Shown here in pieces: positions 2,384 through 24,250 of a DNA stretch of 43,082 nt. Under the pieces are notes generated by a model. That model did not search any database, was not told the DNA's origin, and worked only from the letters and a program-made list of their open reading frames with translations. Numbering within the stretch: position 1 is the stretch's first letter; each line of letters begins with the position of its first letter. The DNA is from Acidobacteriota bacterium (GTDB lineage: Bacteria > Acidobacteriota > Terriglobia > Bryobacterales > Bryobacteraceae): positions 1-43,082 of the forward strand of contig JACQZR010000159.1 in assembly GCA_016213775.1 (NCBI GenBank). Reading direction: 5' to 3'. The position numbers and the translations under genes are program-made.

Positions 2384-4801
2384 TTATTCGAAGCGCAGCG
2401 ACTCCAATGGATCGAGCCTGGCGGCGCGGCGGGCTGGCAGGTAGCTTGCGGCGAGCGCGACCGCGAAGAGCAACATGGCGACGGCTGAGAGGGTGGCCGG
2501 GTCGGTTGGCCTCACTTCGAAGAGTAGAGTCTCGAAGTAGCGCCCGAGGAGGAGTGCGCCGCCGGTTCCCGCAGCGAGGCCGATGACGCAGAGTTTTGCA
2601 CCACGGCCGAGGATCATGCGCGCGATGTCGCTTTGCTGAGCGCCGAGGGCCGTTCGGATTCCGATTTCGTGGGTTCGCTGGGCGACGCCGTAGGACATGA
2701 CGCCGTAGATGCCGATGATCGCAAGAACGAGCGCAAGGCCCGCGAATGCCGCCAGCAGTTGCGTCTGGAAGCGTGGGCGTGCGACGGATTCGTCGATCCA
2801 GCGCTGCATGGTGCCCACTTCGGCCACCGCGAGCTCGGGGTCGATCTGGTGGATCAAATTGCTGACCGGGCGGGCGAGCGCGAGCGGATCTCCGGCGGTG
2901 CGCACCACCAATGTTCCAAAGTTGAAAAACAGGTGAGCTTGCGGGTAGTAGACCATCGGGCCCGTTTTCGAATCTAGCCCACCGTGTTTGATGTTGCCGG
3001 TAATGCCGATGATCTCGCCGGGCAGGTTCTGCGCCTTCATCAGCACGATGATGCGTTTGCCGATGGGGTCTTCGCCGGGGAAGAGAAACTTCGCCAGCGA
3101 CTCGTTTATGACGAAGCGGAGCGGCGCTTTCGCATCGTTGTCGGCATCGGAGAAGACGCGGCCCTGGCGCACGGGGATGTTCATCGCTTCAAAATAGCCC
3201 GGTTGGATCATGCGGACGTCGGTTACGGGCTCCTGTCCGGGGGCGGGTTTTTCCTTGTCGGCGCGCCAGTAGTAGGTGCCGGAACCAGGGCCTTTGAACG
3301 GGAGGAAGGTGATGTTGCTCGCGCTCACCACACCGGGAAGCGTGCGGACACGGCGGTTGAGCTCGGTGAAGAATTGCACACCTTTCGGATCCGGATAGCG
3401 GCTGTTGGGGAGGGATAGGTCGGCAGTGAGTACCTGCTCCGTGCGGAAGCCGGGCGAGACGGCGGTGAGGCGGAGGAAGCTCTTGAGCAATAAGCCGGCG
3501 CCTGCGAGGAGAATGACGGACATTGCGATTTCGGCGACCGTGAGGGCTTCCCGGAGGCGATTGGTACGAGCTCCGGAAGTGGCTCCTCGTCCTCCGTCAC
3601 GCATGGCTACGCTCGCCGAGGCGCGGGCCGTAGTGAAAATGGGGGCGACGGCCAAGAGGGCGCCCGTGAGCAGAGTGATCGCGAGCGTGAAGGCGAGAAC
3701 TGATGGGTCGAGGGAAGCGCGGTCGAGGCGGCGGAGTTCCGGTGGGCCCACCTGCTTGATCAACTGGAGCAACCACCATCCGAGGGCGATACCAGCGACT
3801 GCGCCTATGCCCGCGAGAGCCATGCTTTCGGCGAACAGTTGCCGGATGAGCATCATACGGGTGGCGCCTAGGGAGATGCGAACGGCGAGCTCGCGTGCGC
3901 GGCCGGCGGTGCGCGTGAGCAGCAGGTTGGCGACGTTGGCGCAGACGATCAACAGGACGCAAGCGACGGCGGCGAGCAGGACGAAGAGCGGGGTTCGGGC
4001 CTGGCCGGTAAGTTCTTCAGTGAGGGGGGAGACGCGGGCGCTCCACTTGGCATTGGCCCCAGGGAATTCCTGTTCCAACTGGCGCGCGATGGTGACCATT
4101 TCGCGATCGGCTTGTTCGACGGTGACGCCTGGCTTGAGGCGGGCGAGCACCGCCATGTTGCGTCCGGAGGAGCGCCTGCCGTTTTGGCTCAGGCCGGAGA
4201 TAGTGGCGTTGCGCCAGAGGACTGGGGCGCGGTCGCTGATGGTCATGATGCCCGGCGGAGTAATGCCGATCACCGTGGCGGAAGTGGTGCCGAGCCGGAT
4301 GGAGCGGCCGATGATGGAGGGGTCGGCGGAGAAGCGGGTGCGCCAGAGCGTATCGGAGAGGATGGCGACTTCGGGTGCGCCGGGCTTGCACTCCTCCGCG
4401 GAGAAGGCCCGTCCGAGCTGCATGGAGATGCCCAGCATGGGGAAGAACTCCTCACCGACGATTTGGGTGCGGATTTCCTCCGGTTCACCAGCGGAGGAGA
4501 GCGTGGTGGTGCGGTGGAAGAGCGGGCTCATGGCGTCGAAGACATGGTTCCGAGCGCGCCAATCGAGGAAGTTTGCGTTGGAGACAACGTTGCGCATGGC
4601 ACCCCGGTCGGGCCGGGTTTCCCAGACCATCACGAGGCGGTCGGGTTCGGTGAAGGGGAGCGGGTTGAGGATGACAGCGCGGACAACGCTGAACAGGGCG
4701 GTGTTGGCTCCGATGCCGAGAGCGATGGCGGCTACGGCGACTAGGGTGAAGCTGGGGTTGAGGCGGACGAGACGGAGGGCGTGGCGAAGGTCGTGGAGCA
4801 T
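2384..4801 (-). CDS. MacB-like ABC permease (acidobacterial orphan permease)
   Basis: An 805-residue inner-membrane protein of the large FtsX/MacB permease group that is greatly expanded in Acidobacteriota and usually lacks a paired ATPase. The N-terminus (LRLVRLNPSFTLVAVAAIAL) holds the first membrane helix, followed by a large periplasmic MacB-PCD domain (about residues 50-260), an FtsX core with three helices (about 265-390), a second periplasmic domain, and a last FtsX core ending DPLESLRFE, the usual C-terminus. Length and ends indicate an intact gene. It lacks the short N-terminal extension seen in the second permease of this window. Substrate unknown; no ATPase is adjacent. Confidence 0.93.
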   Translation of the reverse strand: MLHDLRHALRLVRLNPSFTLVAVAAIALGIGANTALFSVVRAVILNPLPFTEPDRLVMVWETRPDRGAMRNVVSNANFLDWRARNHVFDAMSPLFHRTTTLSSAGEPEEIRTQIVGEEFFPMLGISMQLGRAFSAEECKPGAPEVAILSDTLWRTRFSADPSIIGRSIRLGTTSATVIGITPPGIMTISDRAPVLWRNATISGLSQNGRRSSGRNMAVLARLKPGVTVEQADREMVTIARQLEQEFPGANAKWSARVSPLTEELTGQARTPLFVLLAAVACVLLIVCANVANLLLTRTAGRARELAVRISLGATRMMLIRQLFAESMALAGIGAVAGIALGWWLLQLIKQVGPPELRRLDRASLDPSVLAFTLAITLLTGALLAVAPIFTTARASASVAMRDGGRGATSGARTNRLREALTVAEIAMSVILLAGAGLLLKSFLRLTAVSPGFRTEQVLTADLSLPNSRYPDPKGVQFFTELNRRVRTLPGVVSASNITFLPFKGPGSGTYYWRADKEKPAPGQEPVTDVRMIQPGYFEAMNIPVRQGRVFSDADNDAKAPLRFVINESLAKFLFPGEDPIGKRIIVLMKAQNLPGEIIGITGNIKHGGLDSKTGPMVYYPQAHLFFNFGTLVVRTAGDPLALARPVSNLIHQIDPELAVAEVGTMQRWIDESVARPRFQTQLLAAFAGLALVLAIIGIYGVMSYGVAQRTHEIGIRTALGAQQSDIARMILGRGAKLCVIGLAAGTGGALLLGRYFETLLFEVRPTDPATLSAVAMLLFAVALAASYLPARRAARLDPLESLRFE

Positions 4802-20988: not shown

Positions 20989-21064
20989 TGGAGCCACCCG
21001 CCGGGATCGAACCGGCGACCTGCTGATTACGAATCAGCCGCTCTACCAACTGAGCTAGGGTGGC
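20989..21064 (-). tRNA. tRNA-Thr (anticodon CGU), intact
   Basis: A 76-nt cloverleaf with encoded CCA. The acceptor stem GCCACCC/GGGTGGC pairs fully; D-arm GCTC/GAGC, anticodon stem GCTGA/TCAGC with loop TTCGTAA (anticodon CGT, reading ACG), and T-arm GCCGG/CCGGC with loop TTCGATC. Nucleotides 1-39 (21026-21064) lie inside a 186-bp direct repeat whose other copy is at 23780-23965. The gene now sits at the left end of the inserted island and is separated from rnpB, its presumed upstream neighbour before the insertion. Confidence 0.97.
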
Positions 21065-21211
21065 CCGTGAAACCTCTATTTTGCCACACTACCGCCACCC
21101 CGCACAATCACAGGACCCCGCCGGACGATAAGCCGGTTTCTGTTCCCTCCGCCGAAGCGAAAGGCGGCAGCCATTCTTCTAGACCGGACATTGCTGCCCG
21201 GCTCCAGCGAC
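21026..21211. repeat. 186-bp direct repeat, left copy (island boundary)
   Basis: Identical to 23780-23965 at 181 of 186 positions, with no gaps. It contains tRNA-Thr nt 1-39 (minus strand), a 48-bp spacer and the last 99 nt of rnpB. Four of the five differences are in the spacer; the fifth is in a hairpin-loop position of the rnpB part. Sequence identity ends abruptly on both sides. Confidence 0.95.
21113..21211 (-). pseudogene. rnpB: Truncated rnpB 3' fragment
   Basis: Ninety-nine nucleotides matching the 3' end of the intact RNase P RNA at 23867-24250, including the CTAGAAGAATGG conserved region and the ACAGAAACCGGCTTATC segment. The 5' three-quarters, including the GAGGAAAGTC core, is missing, so it cannot form an active ribozyme. 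It lies in the left copy of the direct repeat. Confidence 0.92.
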
Positions 21212-21439: not shown

Positions 21440-22264
21440 CTAGTCTTTTGGGCCCAGGGTCGCTGGGTTAGCACCGACCTTAGGTGTGAGCTGCGATGGA
21501 CTTAGCTTAGGAGAGCACGGCTGGCCTGGAGGTCCCGGCGGGCCCTGGGGGCCGCGGAAGGTCTCTGCGAGCGCTCTCCGAAACGATGCGTCGTTCGCGA
21601 GACGATCCACCAGATCTGGGCGTGGGGGCGCGACGAGGCGGGAAACCGTCGCCAAGAGGGCGAGTACAAGCAAGCCTGCGATGAAGTTCTTCGTCGCACA
21701 ATGCGCAACATCCATTTGCGTGACCTTCTCATTATTCCGCTCCTGGTGCTCGACGAAAATTTCAAGGAATTCCCGCAGCCTACATCGCGCGTGGTGCGCG
21801 GGAGTTTCATCAACGGCAACGAGAAGATCCGCCGTAGAAGGTTGGGGATAGGGTCGCCTTTCGAGACCTCGGACCCCGGCGAGGATGGCGCTGGCGATCT
21901 GCAGAACCAAGTATAGGAGGCAGGCAAGAATCAGCCAATCCAGCAGTCCGCCTGCACGCGGAGTGTTTGCAAGCAAGGTGCCGAACACGATCGTCCCTGC
22001 GATCGAGGAGAGGCCGATCATCGTGGTAAGCCGACTCTCGATGCTTTGCCGTCGTTGTCGTTCCTGTTCGAGGGCTGCCGCGCATACCGCGTAAGCATCG
22101 CCCACACGTTCGGGAGTGATGACGGCCACACGGGCTTCCCATGTCTGCCTCTCTTCGGCCTTATGTGATTGAATGGCCTCCTCTTCTTGCGGCATCAGCG
22201 GTTCCGGCAGTGGAAAGATGTGATCGCGGAGCCGTTGCCACCTCTCGCGGCGAGTCAGTCTCAT
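21440..22264 (-). CDS. Membrane protein with coiled coil and collagen-like tail, graspetide operon
   Basis: A 274-residue protein starting in an ATGA overlap with the ATP-grasp gene, so translation is probably coupled. Residues 1-78 are charged and helical (coiled-coil-like), followed by two adjacent membrane helices (about 79-99 and 107-128), a soluble stretch with REFLEIFVEHQERNNEK, a third helix (about 196-215), and a C-terminal tail with FRGPQGPPGPPGQPCSPK, three to four collagen-like G-P-x triplets, then Pro/Ser-rich residues. The helix-plus-paired-membrane-segment layout resembles SLATT-type membrane modules, a weak comparison. A role in export, anchoring or self-protection for the modified peptides is inference from position only. 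No family was recognised with certainty. Confidence 0.85.
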   Translation of the reverse strand: MRLTRRERWQRLRDHIFPLPEPLMPQEEEAIQSHKAEERQTWEARVAVITPERVGDAYAVCAAALEQERQRRQSIESRLTTMIGLSSIAGTIVFGTLLANTPRAGGLLDWLILACLLYLVLQIASAILAGVRGLERRPYPQPSTADLLVAVDETPAHHARCRLREFLEIFVEHQERNNEKVTQMDVAHCATKNFIAGLLVLALLATVSRLVAPPRPDLVDRLANDASFRRALAETFRGPQGPPGPPGQPCSPKLSPSQLTPKVGANPATLGPKD

Positions 22265-23226
22265 AACGTGCTCGTTTCCGTCAGCCAGTCGGCCACGGCA
22301 TCGGTGATACCAAGGTGCAACATGTCATCGAGCCAGAGCCACTGTCCGCTCGGATTGACTTCCAGAAACACATACTCGCCACTCGGCGTAAGAACAAGAT
22401 CGATTGCGCCAAACGTGAGACTGAGAAGTCTCATCAGCCTGTGAAGCGCCGCTTCGAGATCGCCCGGCAATTGGATCGGGTGATGCGGGAGTTCTGGGTT
22501 ATCTGTCTGCCTCCAATCTATGCGCGCAGCAGGGTCCGTTTGTGAATCGATGGCTGCTGCAAAACACCGCTCGCCGACGAAAGTAACGCGCACATCGTAC
22601 CGCTTCGGAATCAAGGCCTGATAGATGCTCGGACTCCAACGAGCGCTATCAAGTTCGTCCAAGTGGCTTTCCAGGAGCTGTGAGGTGTAAATGGCGTGGT
22701 CCGCACCGTCTTTCACCACGTGCCCGCTCCTTGTCGGCTTGATCACCATGCTGCCGAAAGCCCGAAACCGGGCGCGTATGATGGCCGGGTCGTTCGTGAT
22801 CACGGTAGGCGGAATTCGAAGCCCTAAACTCGCCGCGAGCCGCAACTGATAGGGTTTGAACTCGGCCGCCCATACGTCGGCAGGGTGACTCATCCATCGC
22901 GCTTCTTGCCCGATGATGCTTCCTAGAATGGTTGCTCTAGTCTCGTTGCGGCAGAACGTGGCGACGCCTTCATCCATACGCTCCGGAGTGCTTGGTATCC
23001 TCATCCGACGGTACCAGATGCTGGTCGGCTCCATGAGCGGCTCGTCGTCACATTGCAGCCACGCTGCAGAATCAGACGGGTTGTATGTAATTCGGCGGTG
23101 AAAGGGATACTCTTCAGTATTGAGTCGATGGTGAGGAATCCCCTGACGTGCCAGCCGTTGAACGACGTCATCCGTGGCAGCATCGACTTTCGTGCTTACG
23201 ATGAGGACGACCGCCTTACGCATCAT
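22261..23226 (-). CDS. ATP-grasp peptide ligase, MvdC/MvdD type (graspetide maturase)
   Basis: A 321-residue ATP-grasp enzyme expected to link side chains of Thr/Ser (esters) or Lys (amides) to Asp/Glu in a precursor peptide. The N-terminal VVLIVSTKVDAATDDVVQRL and the PYQLRLAASLGLRIPPTVIT segment (125-143) are typical of this subfamily. Predicted ATP/Mg residues are K163 (MVIKPTRSG), R213 (YDVRVTFVG), D276 (AIDLVLT), and E289 and N291 in LEVNPSGQWLW, the subfamily hallmark ending G-Q-W. All key residues are present. The start (ATG 23226 or 23223) overlaps the end of the adjacent precursor gene, and the end overlaps the membrane protein by four bases. No methyltransferase companion is present. 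Confidence 0.92.
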   Translation of the reverse strand: MMRKAVVLIVSTKVDAATDDVVQRLARQGIPHHRLNTEEYPFHRRITYNPSDSAAWLQCDDEPLMEPTSIWYRRMRIPSTPERMDEGVATFCRNETRATILGSIIGQEARWMSHPADVWAAEFKPYQLRLAASLGLRIPPTVITNDPAIIRARFRAFGSMVIKPTRSGHVVKDGADHAIYTSQLLESHLDELDSARWSPSIYQALIPKRYDVRVTFVGERCFAAAIDSQTDPAARIDWRQTDNPELPHHPIQLPGDLEAALHRLMRLLSLTFGAIDLVLTPSGEYVFLEVNPSGQWLWLDDMLHLGITDAVADWLTETSTL

Positions 23227-23389
23227 CCGTCGTCTCGGCTTTTACCATCGTGAACCGAGTCGATTTGTCCGACATTGACGTTCGTTCCTCGGGATTCTCA
23301 AAACCCTGCCCGAGATCGGAGTTCTCACAACTACCTTGCGGATCACCCGCAGCAAGGGGCTCGGCGAAACGCAGGATGAAAGGCGTCAT
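23216..23389 (-). CDS. Graspetide precursor peptide 2 (57 residues)
   Basis: A small gene with a good ribosome site (GGAG, seven bases before the ATG at 23389). It ends inside the start of the ATP-grasp gene. The N-terminus TPFILRFAEPL matches the P-F-x-L-R-F-A leader box of ATP-grasp-modified RiPP precursors. The C-terminus (41-57) reads DKSTRFTMVKAETTDDA, with possible donors S43, T44, T47, T53, T54 and K50, and acceptors E52, D55 and D56. It aligns without gaps with the upstream peptide: 5 of 9 leader residues and 9 of 17 core residues identical, but only 2 of the 31 between. Which residues are joined is unknown. Confidence 0.87.
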   Translation of the reverse strand: MTPFILRFAEPLAAGDPQGSCENSDLGQGFENPEERTSMSDKSTRFTMVKAETTDDA

Positions 23390-23418
23390 CTGATTGCTCC
23401 TCTGGGTAGATTCTTCGT

Positions 23419-23592
23419 TTACTTATCGTCCGTCGTTTCCTGACGGATTTCCGTGATCCGCGTCGTTTGGTCGGTGAGCGTTCCTGCGGTGCCGGCATAG
23501 ACGACCGCTGCCGGAGGGTCTTCTCCCGAAGGATCATCACAAAACGGCCCGCGTATACCGTGTATGGCGTAATTTAGAATGAGCGGCTGCAC
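23419..23592 (-). CDS. Graspetide precursor peptide 1 (57 residues, GTG start)
   Basis: First gene of the island operon, 29 bases upstream of precursor 2. The GTG start at 23592 is the only one that keeps the leader box, with GAGG four bases before it; an in-frame TGA lies directly upstream. The N-terminus MQPLILNYAI corresponds to MTPFILRFAE in precursor 2. The C-terminus (41-57) reads DQTTRITEIRQETTDDK, with possible donors T43, T44, T47, T53, T54 and K57, and acceptors E48, E52, D55 and D56. Equal length and matching ends but an unrelated middle argue that both are real coding sequences under selection, not a recent duplication. Two Cys-free cores; the single Cys (residue 18) is in the linker. 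Confidence 0.82.
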   Translation of the reverse strand: MQPLILNYAIHGIRGPFCDDPSGEDPPAAVVYAGTAGTLTDQTTRITEIRQETTDDK

Positions 23593-23779: not shown

Positions 23780-23818
23780 ATTACGAATCAGCCGCTCTAC
23801 CAACTGAGCTAGGGTGGC
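23780..23818 (-). pseudogene. tRNA-Thr 5' half (nt 1-39)
   Basis: Identical to nucleotides 1-39 of the intact tRNA-Thr(CGU), through the anticodon loop, then breaking off into island sequence. It cannot fold as a tRNA. It lies 48 bases downstream of the intact rnpB on the same strand. Confidence 0.93.
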
Positions 23819-23965
23819 CCGTGAAACTTCTATTTTGCCACACTCCCACCACCCCGCACAATCATAGGACCCCGCCGGACGATAAGCCGGTTTCTGTTCC
23901 CTCCGCCAAAGCGAAAGGCGGCAGCCATTCTTCTAGACCGGACATTGCTGCCCGGCTCCAGCGAC
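23780..23965. repeat. 186-bp direct repeat, right copy (island boundary)
   Basis: Partner of 21026-21211 (181/186 identical, ungapped). Here the rnpB part continues into the intact gene, while the tRNA part stops after nucleotide 39. Confidence 0.95.
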
Positions 23966-24250
23966 CTACCCGAGAGTGGTAACGGAGCGGGTCGCTCCTC
24001 CCCTCCTATTTGGTCTTGCTCCGCGTGGGGTTTGCCCTGCCAGCCGCATTACTGCGTCCGCGGTGCGCTCTTACCGCACCATTTCACCCTTACCGCGCCG
24101 GCCGTTGCCAGCCAGCACGGCGGTATATTTTCTGTGGCACTTTCCGTGAAATCCGCTTTGAGCGAATCCCCCCGGCCGTTAGCCGGCACGCCACCCTGTG
24201 GAGACCGGACTTTCCTCGCTTACGCGCGGCTGCCTGTCCGGCGGGTTCCT
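23867..24250 (-). ncRNA. rnpB: RNase P RNA (bacterial type A), intact
   Basis: The RNA subunit of the tRNA 5'-processing ribozyme. On the minus strand it carries the universal core GAGGAAAGTC (24217-24208), GTAAGGGTGAAATGGTGCGG and GTAAGAGCGCACC in the middle, then CTAGAAGAATGG and the ACAGAAACCGGCTTATC 3' segment. The 5' end (near GAACCCGCCGGAC) pairs with the 3' end (GTCCGGCGGGGTC) as helix P1, fixing the borders to within a few bases. It follows a response-regulator gene by about 27 bases and presumably preceded tRNA-Thr directly before the island arrived. Confidence 0.95.

Follow-up and report, generated by a model that had tools for sequence, protein, structure and literature searches.

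Between positions 21440 and 23592 of the window (the whole stretch of 43,082 nucleotides analysed here, from an Acidobacteriota bacterium), we found a four-gene operon on the minus strand that probably encodes a graspetide system, that is, a ribosomally synthesized and post-translationally modified peptide (RiPP) of the ATP-grasp type, here with predicted nested double esters, combined with a dedicated membrane partner for handling or release of the product. The operon runs from 23592 to 21440 in the order precursor 1, precursor 2, ligase and membrane protein, with the following features.

23419..23592, minus strand: precursor peptide 1, 57 aa, GTG start, leader PLILNYA, core TTRITEIRQETTDDK
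23425..23463, minus strand: core motif TRxTxxxxETTDD of precursor 1 (DNA pattern match)
23216..23389, minus strand: precursor peptide 2, 57 aa, ATG start, leader PFILRFA, core STRFTMVKAETTDDA
23222..23260, minus strand: core motif TRxTxxxxETTDD of precursor 2 (DNA pattern match)
22261..23226, minus strand: ATP-grasp graspetide synthetase (MvdC/MvdD/TgmB-like), 321 aa, assigned from TIGR04187, PF21068, 7m4s and the ligase tree
21440..22264, minus strand: three-helix membrane partner protein with a collagen-like tail, 274 aa, assigned from alignments, linkage to the ligase and a structure model
21518..21553, minus strand: collagen-like tail GPQ GPP GPP GQP, partner residues 238-249 (Gly-X-Y count)

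The two precursor genes are separated by 29 nt, whereas precursor 2 overlaps the ligase gene by 11 nt and the ligase gene overlaps the membrane protein gene by 4 nt. Putative ribosome-binding purine runs, AGAGGAG and TGAGG, were recognized by eye just upstream of the precursor genes, one for each. An earlier sequence-only reading of this DNA had described two equal genes of 57 codons ahead of an MvdC/MvdD-type ligase with tight or overlapping junctions, and our coordinates agree with that description. The same reading held that the cassette lacks a methyltransferase, a protease and an ATP-binding cassette (ABC) exporter; none of these was found in family scans of the four cassette genes, which left out the other, overlapping open reading frames (ORFs) between the direct repeats described below. 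The collagen-tailed membrane protein that it listed is also present and, moreover, belongs to a partner family common to many related ligases.

The two precursors share 5/9 residues in the leader, 2/31 in the middle and 9/17 in the core when aligned without gaps, and these recomputed values are the same as those given by the sequence-only reading. A search of the window with the DNA pattern for TRxTxxxxETTDD returned two matches, which are the ends of both small genes. As no match occurred in 100 dinucleotide shuffles (mean 0.00), the core motif exceeds chance expectation. Three small ORFs lie upstream of each of two related ligases, those of genome G155 (locus L003) and Silvibacterium bohemicum (L018), in the same place and direction. 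Among these six peptides, four end in TRxTxxxxETTDD plus one residue, one in TRxTxxxxKTTDD and one in TKTAVNTESTDWR, so that each locus has two peptides ending in the core found in the window. A proline followed by hydrophobic residues is present near the N-terminus in five of the six. The leaders of the window precursors and of these five L003/L018 peptides fit the rule 'Phhx(1,2)h' described for graspetide precursors (PMC8939145). Thus, small peptides followed by a ligase recur elsewhere, and the expectation of the earlier reading that homologous peptides should stand beside related ligases survived a search at the two closest full-length relatives. From these comparisons, we take the window precursors to be real genes and not chance frames. 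The features that characterize a graspetide cassette, namely a small precursor beside the ligase, a conserved leader box and a core of Thr/Ser and Asp/Glu residues, were all found. The proposal that one enzyme modifies several peptides also gains support at the level of gene content, because three peptides accompany a single ligase at both L003 and L018.

The ligase belongs, as judged from its sequence, with the graspetide synthetases. Its best family model was TIGR04187 (E = 7.3e-75, 252.1 bits, curated cut-off 350), followed by the MvdC model (218 bits, cut-off 425), the MvdD model (206 bits, cut-off 475), a SPASM-associated model (115 bits, below the curated cut-off) and a RimK-family model (28 bits, E = 9.7e-07, below the curated cut-off). 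The MvdD pre-ATP-grasp domain PF21068 was detected at 42.6 bits, above the Pfam cut-off of 27, which identifies the protein as a graspetide-type ATP-grasp ligase with an MvdD-like pre-ATP-grasp domain. Six distinct solved chains matched the ligase at E 0.001, including AMdnB (7m4s, E = 1.5e-48), CdnC and the 'ATP grasp ligase' entries 5ig8 and 5ig9, which we take to be MdnB and MdnC; the ATP-grasp stretches DVRVT and FGAIDLVLTPSGEYVFLEVNPSGQW align to chains 7m4s and 5ig8. The identification of an MvdC/MvdD-type ligase in the earlier reading is therefore borne out by TIGR04187, PF21068 and the solved chains. In the genome carrying the window, this ligase was the only match to TIGR04187. Ligase matches at E 0.001 were obtained in 23 of 399 genomes of the class, and, besides the window's own ligase, only that of G155 exceeded 50% identity (61%). 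A scan of named genomes added the ligase of Silvibacterium bohemicum, another member of Acidobacteriota, at 54% identity, and a partial contig of Candidatus Solibacter with 73% identity over 85 residues. In a tree of 54 ligases, the window, G155 and Silvibacterium sequences formed a clade with support 100/100, and three Streptomyces TgmB sequences formed a separate clade; deeper branching was weakly supported. Three graspetide-type ligase matches (L020, L043 and L045) lie in tandem on contig C159 of genome G258, and one of the three is followed by a C39-like ABC protein.

The spacing of the core residues predicts two nested esters, an inner Thr4-Glu9 and an outer Thr1-Asp12 link closing on a four-residue loop. 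In the core T1-R-x-T4-x4-E9-T-T-D12-D, both 4+9 and 1+12 equal 13. The two esters of fuscimiditide, Thr7-Asp18 and Thr3-Asp22, likewise both sum to 25 (PMC12291112), and equal sums are what residues opposite each other in a hairpin should give. Variants of TKTxxxxExDD make up most cores in the plasmids of Sinorhizobium, P. aeruginosa, Croceicoccus and Agrobacterium and in a Leptospira phage, where a partner protein of the same family is encoded. These cores have one residue fewer per strand than the window core, and both 3+8 and 1+10 equal 11. Such a matched change on both strands is as nested links predict, with the support coming from few independent lineages. A script was applied to the precursors of nine loci (window, L003, L018, L062, L063, L088, L090, L108 and L010). 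An equal Thr-Thr and Glu-acid spacing was possible in 25 of the 28 cores that it listed, and in 16 of the 17 cores with a single listed reading.

Related loci hold precursors of other architectures. At 1028-1345 of L010, a precursor carries three TxxT...ETY(D/E)D cores, two of which share the symmetric spacing of the window cores but have a three-residue loop. This precursor adjoins a very divergent ligase, which is followed by a protein with three hydrophobic segments that the partner profile missed; the tree analysis below counts L010 as having no partner. Multi-core precursors with repeated GETTxTxTREGADQ-like units were seen at 960-1523 of L025 and 1181-1535 of L006 (minus-strand reading), preceding ligases with the same partner family. 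The Leptospira phage locus L062 (KF114876.1 56108-63061) has a complete precursor-ligase-membrane partner operon at 2691-4592. The annotation of KF114876.1 contains only the last 37 of the 106 residues of the precursor frame, starting just before the second core.

The membrane partner was first seen conserved in five loci: the window, L003, L018, L019 and L060, the last being a contig of IMG/VR. The L019 and L060 contigs hold only the C-terminal part of the ligase. A profile extended with four proteins that lack the tail, taken from plasmids and the Leptospira phage, recovered six more partners among the loci of ligase relatives (L024, L009, L025, L006, L021 and L027), each directly after a ligase, with L027 becoming significant only after the second profile round. 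When the Sinorhizobium partner was used as a query, five of 72,556 plasmid records matched, all with an adjoining ligase, and two of these (a second Croceicoccus and an Agrobacterium) were new to the partner set. The family thus ranges over Acidobacteriota, plasmids of Pseudomonadota and a Leptospira phage, whose protein corresponds to phrog_21292 in PHROGs (function not assigned); the window protein matches that group at E 0.017 only. On the 54-ligase tree (13 with the partner, three TgmB and 38 with neither), the partner label required three changes, against 11.7 with shuffled labels. In L005, L022 and L045, which are among the 38, an ABC protein directly follows the ligase and no partner was detected; a motif at their start leads us to presume that these ABC proteins are of the C39 type.

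By simple hydropathy, 12 of the 15 members have three membrane segments and the other three have two. Two structure models of the partner had mean predicted local distance difference test scores (pLDDT) of 71.5 and 80.1, and the latter model places long helices at 51-99, 106-135 and 155-211, ahead of a tail predicted with low confidence. The charges flanking the segments give a weak indication that the N-terminus is inside and the tail in the periplasm. A run of Gly-X-Y triplets, the hallmark of a collagen-like sequence, occupies the same position in each of the five close members that were aligned (4-7 triplets) and in the partial protein of L103 from genome G344 (12 triplets), albeit the Pfam Collagen model matched weakly in only two of the five (best E = 0.011). 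A four-triplet run also occurred in 32 of 704 frames of at least 150 residues in the loci of ligase relatives, duplicate gene copies included. As such a run alone is not rare, the collagen-tail claim rests on its conserved position. In L025 and L006 the tail looks, by eye, like a coiled coil, and because this replaces the collagen-like sequence there, it is a reasonable guess that the tail serves as an oligomerising stalk. Taken together, the alignments and gene order identify the collagen-tailed protein as the local form of a three-helix membrane family directly following related ligases.

Among known systems, TgmA/TgmB of Streptomyces is closest in its ligase model (TIGR04187, GRASP_SAV_5884), in having a single ligase after the precursor, and in its leader P-W-A-L-R-F-A (L061 and L064), which resembles P-F-I-L-R-F-A in the window. 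It differs in that TgmA/TgmB loci contain a methyltransferase gene, whereas the window has none and a membrane partner instead, and in that the window group has two or three precursors and a different core. The ligase is not assigned to TgmB, as its 252.1 bits fall short of 350 and its clade is separated (100/100) from the three TgmB sequences. Microviridin loci have two ligases, a TxKxPSDx(D/E)(D/E) core, an acetyltransferase and an ABC transporter. The window shares with MvdC/MvdD and MdnB/MdnC the PF21068 domain, the ATP-grasp layout and a P-h-h leader box, but it has one ligase and not two, a core unlike that of microviridins, and neither acetyltransferase nor ABC transporter in the cassette; membership was rejected on the single ligase in the genome and on the scores, 218 bits where the MvdC model requires 425 and 206 where the MvdD model requires 475. 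Plesiocin, a hairpin graspetide (PMC13097080), and fuscimiditide have the ring-within-ring hairpin with a constant cross-strand register that is predicted for the window. Two residues between the links on each strand and a four-residue loop are predicted for the latter, whereas the loop of fuscimiditide spans ten residues and a methyltransferase is present there too. In Makarova 2022, clusters 18 and 40 group uncharacterised membrane proteins whose genes accompany those of ATP-grasp ligases, and for cluster 18, whose loci are mostly without known peptide transporters, the authors suggested transport (PMC8939145). The window partner resembles these proteins by description, and the word 'collagen' is absent from the main text of that paper. 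Graspetides exported by a C39 peptidase-containing transporter (PCAT) have a double-glycine peptidase-exporter. No match to Peptidase_C39 (PF03412) was obtained in the whole genome of the window (98.48% complete), whereas eight of 14 control genomes were positive.

On the reading that we prefer, the leader box P-h-h-L-x-F/Y-A would dock each 57-residue precursor on the one synthetase, which would phosphorylate Glu9 and Asp12 of the C-terminal core. Attack by Thr4 and Thr1 would then form the inner Thr4-Glu9 and outer Thr1-Asp12 esters with a loss of 36 Da, and the same enzyme would process both precursors despite their differing middles. The homologies of ligase and precursors make this enzyme step well supported. 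The partner would reside in the inner membrane, with N-terminal cytoplasmic helices, three membrane helices and a probably periplasmic tail, which in this clade is collagen-like, short and perhaps trimerising. It would most likely hold the enzyme or the modified peptide at the membrane and help release, replacing the peptidase-exporter of other graspetide loci. We infer this role from gene linkage, from the genome having no match to the C39 peptidase and from the other genes that stand in its place elsewhere.

Several observations weigh against this reading. None of the NCBIfam graspetide models matched by the ligase was matched above its cut-off. Neither of the window precursors matches an NCBIfam or Pfam model. 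The six L003/L018 precursors match no NCBIfam model either, and no family was found for the eight precursors at E up to 10. In particular, the window precursors were not assigned to TgmA, for which NCBIfam presumably contains a precursor model. The leader box is absent from peptide 1 of L018 with the start chosen, and modification of the peptides is deduced here from sequence. As for the ring register, the script listed no equal reading for three of the 28 cores, which belong to L063, L090 and L010 (one per locus), albeit those of L063 and L010 can also be read as equal by eye. The third peptides of L003 and L018 are off the core spacing, and the script gave no core for them. In the partner-bearing loci L006, L009, L021, L024, L025 and L027, which were left out of the script, the cores follow a different plan. 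Surplus Thr residues also permit alternative pairings.

Further points of this kind concern the partner. Foldseek searches of both models against PDB gave nothing at E 0.001, the top rows being mostly generic helical proteins. Nothing was found at that threshold against BFVD with the first model (mean pLDDT 71.5), and a single match of the partner profile to PDB sequences at E 0.35 was disregarded. With no fold match, the partner role rests on gene order. Profile searches, scoring at most six candidates per genome, detected the five-member profile in two of 399 class genomes, both at the ligase, and the 15-member profile in ten of 396 genomes of the phylum. Of these ten hits, five were strong and beside the ligase, four were marginal and one lay at the end of a contig. 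No strong copy was found away from a ligase in either set, but since the two and five strong hits are the profiles' own members, the searches show absence elsewhere and not new cases. The contig-end hit, in G344 (L103), leaves the ligase out of view. The marginal hits (E 1e-4 to 7e-4) cover about 60 to 100 profile positions in frames of 733-844 aa and were set aside as unrelated. Finally, the flanks read around most relatives span about 1.5 kb, and a distant exporter could be missed.

The nearest rival accepts the graspetide set but takes the membrane protein for a self-immunity factor against the cell's own peptides. Small multi-helix membrane immunity proteins are common in the operons of peptide bacteriocins, many lineages have the partner gene overlapping the ligase gene or a short distance behind it, and the Leptospira phage carries the whole set, all of which would suit immunity. 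Nevertheless, the partner accompanies several quite different cores, and graspetides that act as protease inhibitors, as microviridins and plesiocin do (PMC13097080), would need no membrane immunity; we regard this explanation as possible but on balance unlikely. That the membrane protein is instead an effector, shut or opened by the modified peptide in a phage-defence or toxin-antitoxin-like pair on mobile DNA, strikes us as improbable. The cassette does lie between direct repeats with no other evident cargo, plasmids and a phage carry relatives, another of which, on the IMG/VR contig, has a serine-recombinase-like gene nearby, and the genome has no C39 peptidase. Nevertheless, no PADLOC model matches the five collagen-tailed members, no fold match was obtained, and no SLATT or other pore-effector Pfam model appeared at E up to 10, a search in which the HMMER filters hide most matches above 0.1. 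A SLATT-like effector was rejected in particular, as none of the profiles of Pfam, which presumably holds SLATT models, was listed at that limit for the five collagen-tailed and four tail-less members.

A combination of an ordinary RimK-like ligase with chance small frames is hardly credible. It could draw on the weak RimK-family match (9.7e-07) and on precursors without a family model, but the bit score of the best graspetide model is about nine times that of the RimK model (252 vs 28), on which a RimK-like housekeeping ligase was rejected, and small ORFs at two other loci also end in the core motif, which has no chance match in the shuffled window. Beyond the preferred graspetide cassette with a handling or release partner, it is attractive to speculate that the peptides act on or through an oligomeric three-helix partner inside the producer, as a peptide-controlled membrane switch. 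This would be a widespread mobile class of graspetide systems, marked by that partner and not by a protease or exporter, in which different oligomerising stalks could be swapped in as the periplasmic tail, a collagen-like one here and perhaps a coiled coil elsewhere; we consider it a doubtful conjecture.

The cassette is flanked by direct repeats at a junction of two RNA genes.

20989..21064, minus strand: intact tRNA-Thr (CGT), left of the cassette
21026..21211, no strand given: left copy of the 186-bp direct repeat (5' part of tRNA-Thr, spacer, rnpB 3' end as a fragment)
23780..23965, no strand given: right copy of the 186-bp direct repeat (5' fragment of tRNA-Thr, spacer, intact rnpB 3' end)
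23867..24245, minus strand: intact RNase P RNA (rnpB), right of the cassette, 281.9 bits

The repeat copies differ at five positions in 186 bp, and the tRNA and rnpB are each left with a complete copy and a fragment. The four genes occupy most of the 2.57 kb between them, where G+C is 57.2% against 60% for the whole window. The repeats at the tRNA-Thr/rnpB junction indicate that the cassette was probably inserted, and it looks like the insertion of a small circle or fragment bearing the same junction; no integrase was found among the four cassette genes. The rnpB locus was read in ten of the 11 other genomes of the genus (about 1.5 kb on each side, one shorter), only the tRNA part having matched in G009. 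ARAGORN found no tRNA in any of the ten loci, and a scan of the tRNA locus, made in seven genomes, placed tRNA-Thr(CGT) on a different contig from rnpB each time. As none of the ten rnpB loci has an adjoining tRNA, an uninterrupted junction is not demonstrable. The relatives include two plasmids typed as conjugative, a phage and the IMG/VR contig with a serine-recombinase-like gene, contexts that fit a mobile system. On that contig (L060), 74-871 and 2506-4218 (minus-strand reading) hold a collagen-tailed partner and a ligase end near a 570-aa serine-recombinase-like protein, recognized by eye.

The chemistry and the enzyme class of this cassette are already known. Our survey of the literature on graspetides, their motifs and partners and on SLATT proteins, which did not cover the lists of Lee 2020 and Ramesh 2021 or the supplements of PMC8939145, turned up no paper describing this core with this partner. 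The core spacing, the multiple diverged precursors or the collagen-tailed partner may in part be contained in those lists and supplements; what we have not seen together is the combination of a core with a predicted ring spacing, two or three diverged precursors per ligase and a collagen-tailed partner. The core spacing offers a ring register predicted beforehand and directly testable by mass, and a single ligase with naturally diverged paired precursors is useful for studies of substrate tolerance. A membrane-protein family accompanies graspetide ligases across Acidobacteriota, plasmids of Pseudomonadota and a Leptospira phage, with one branch collagen-tailed. If the partner is genuinely a release or immunity factor, it would bear on how graspetides are finished and handled without a peptidase-exporter.

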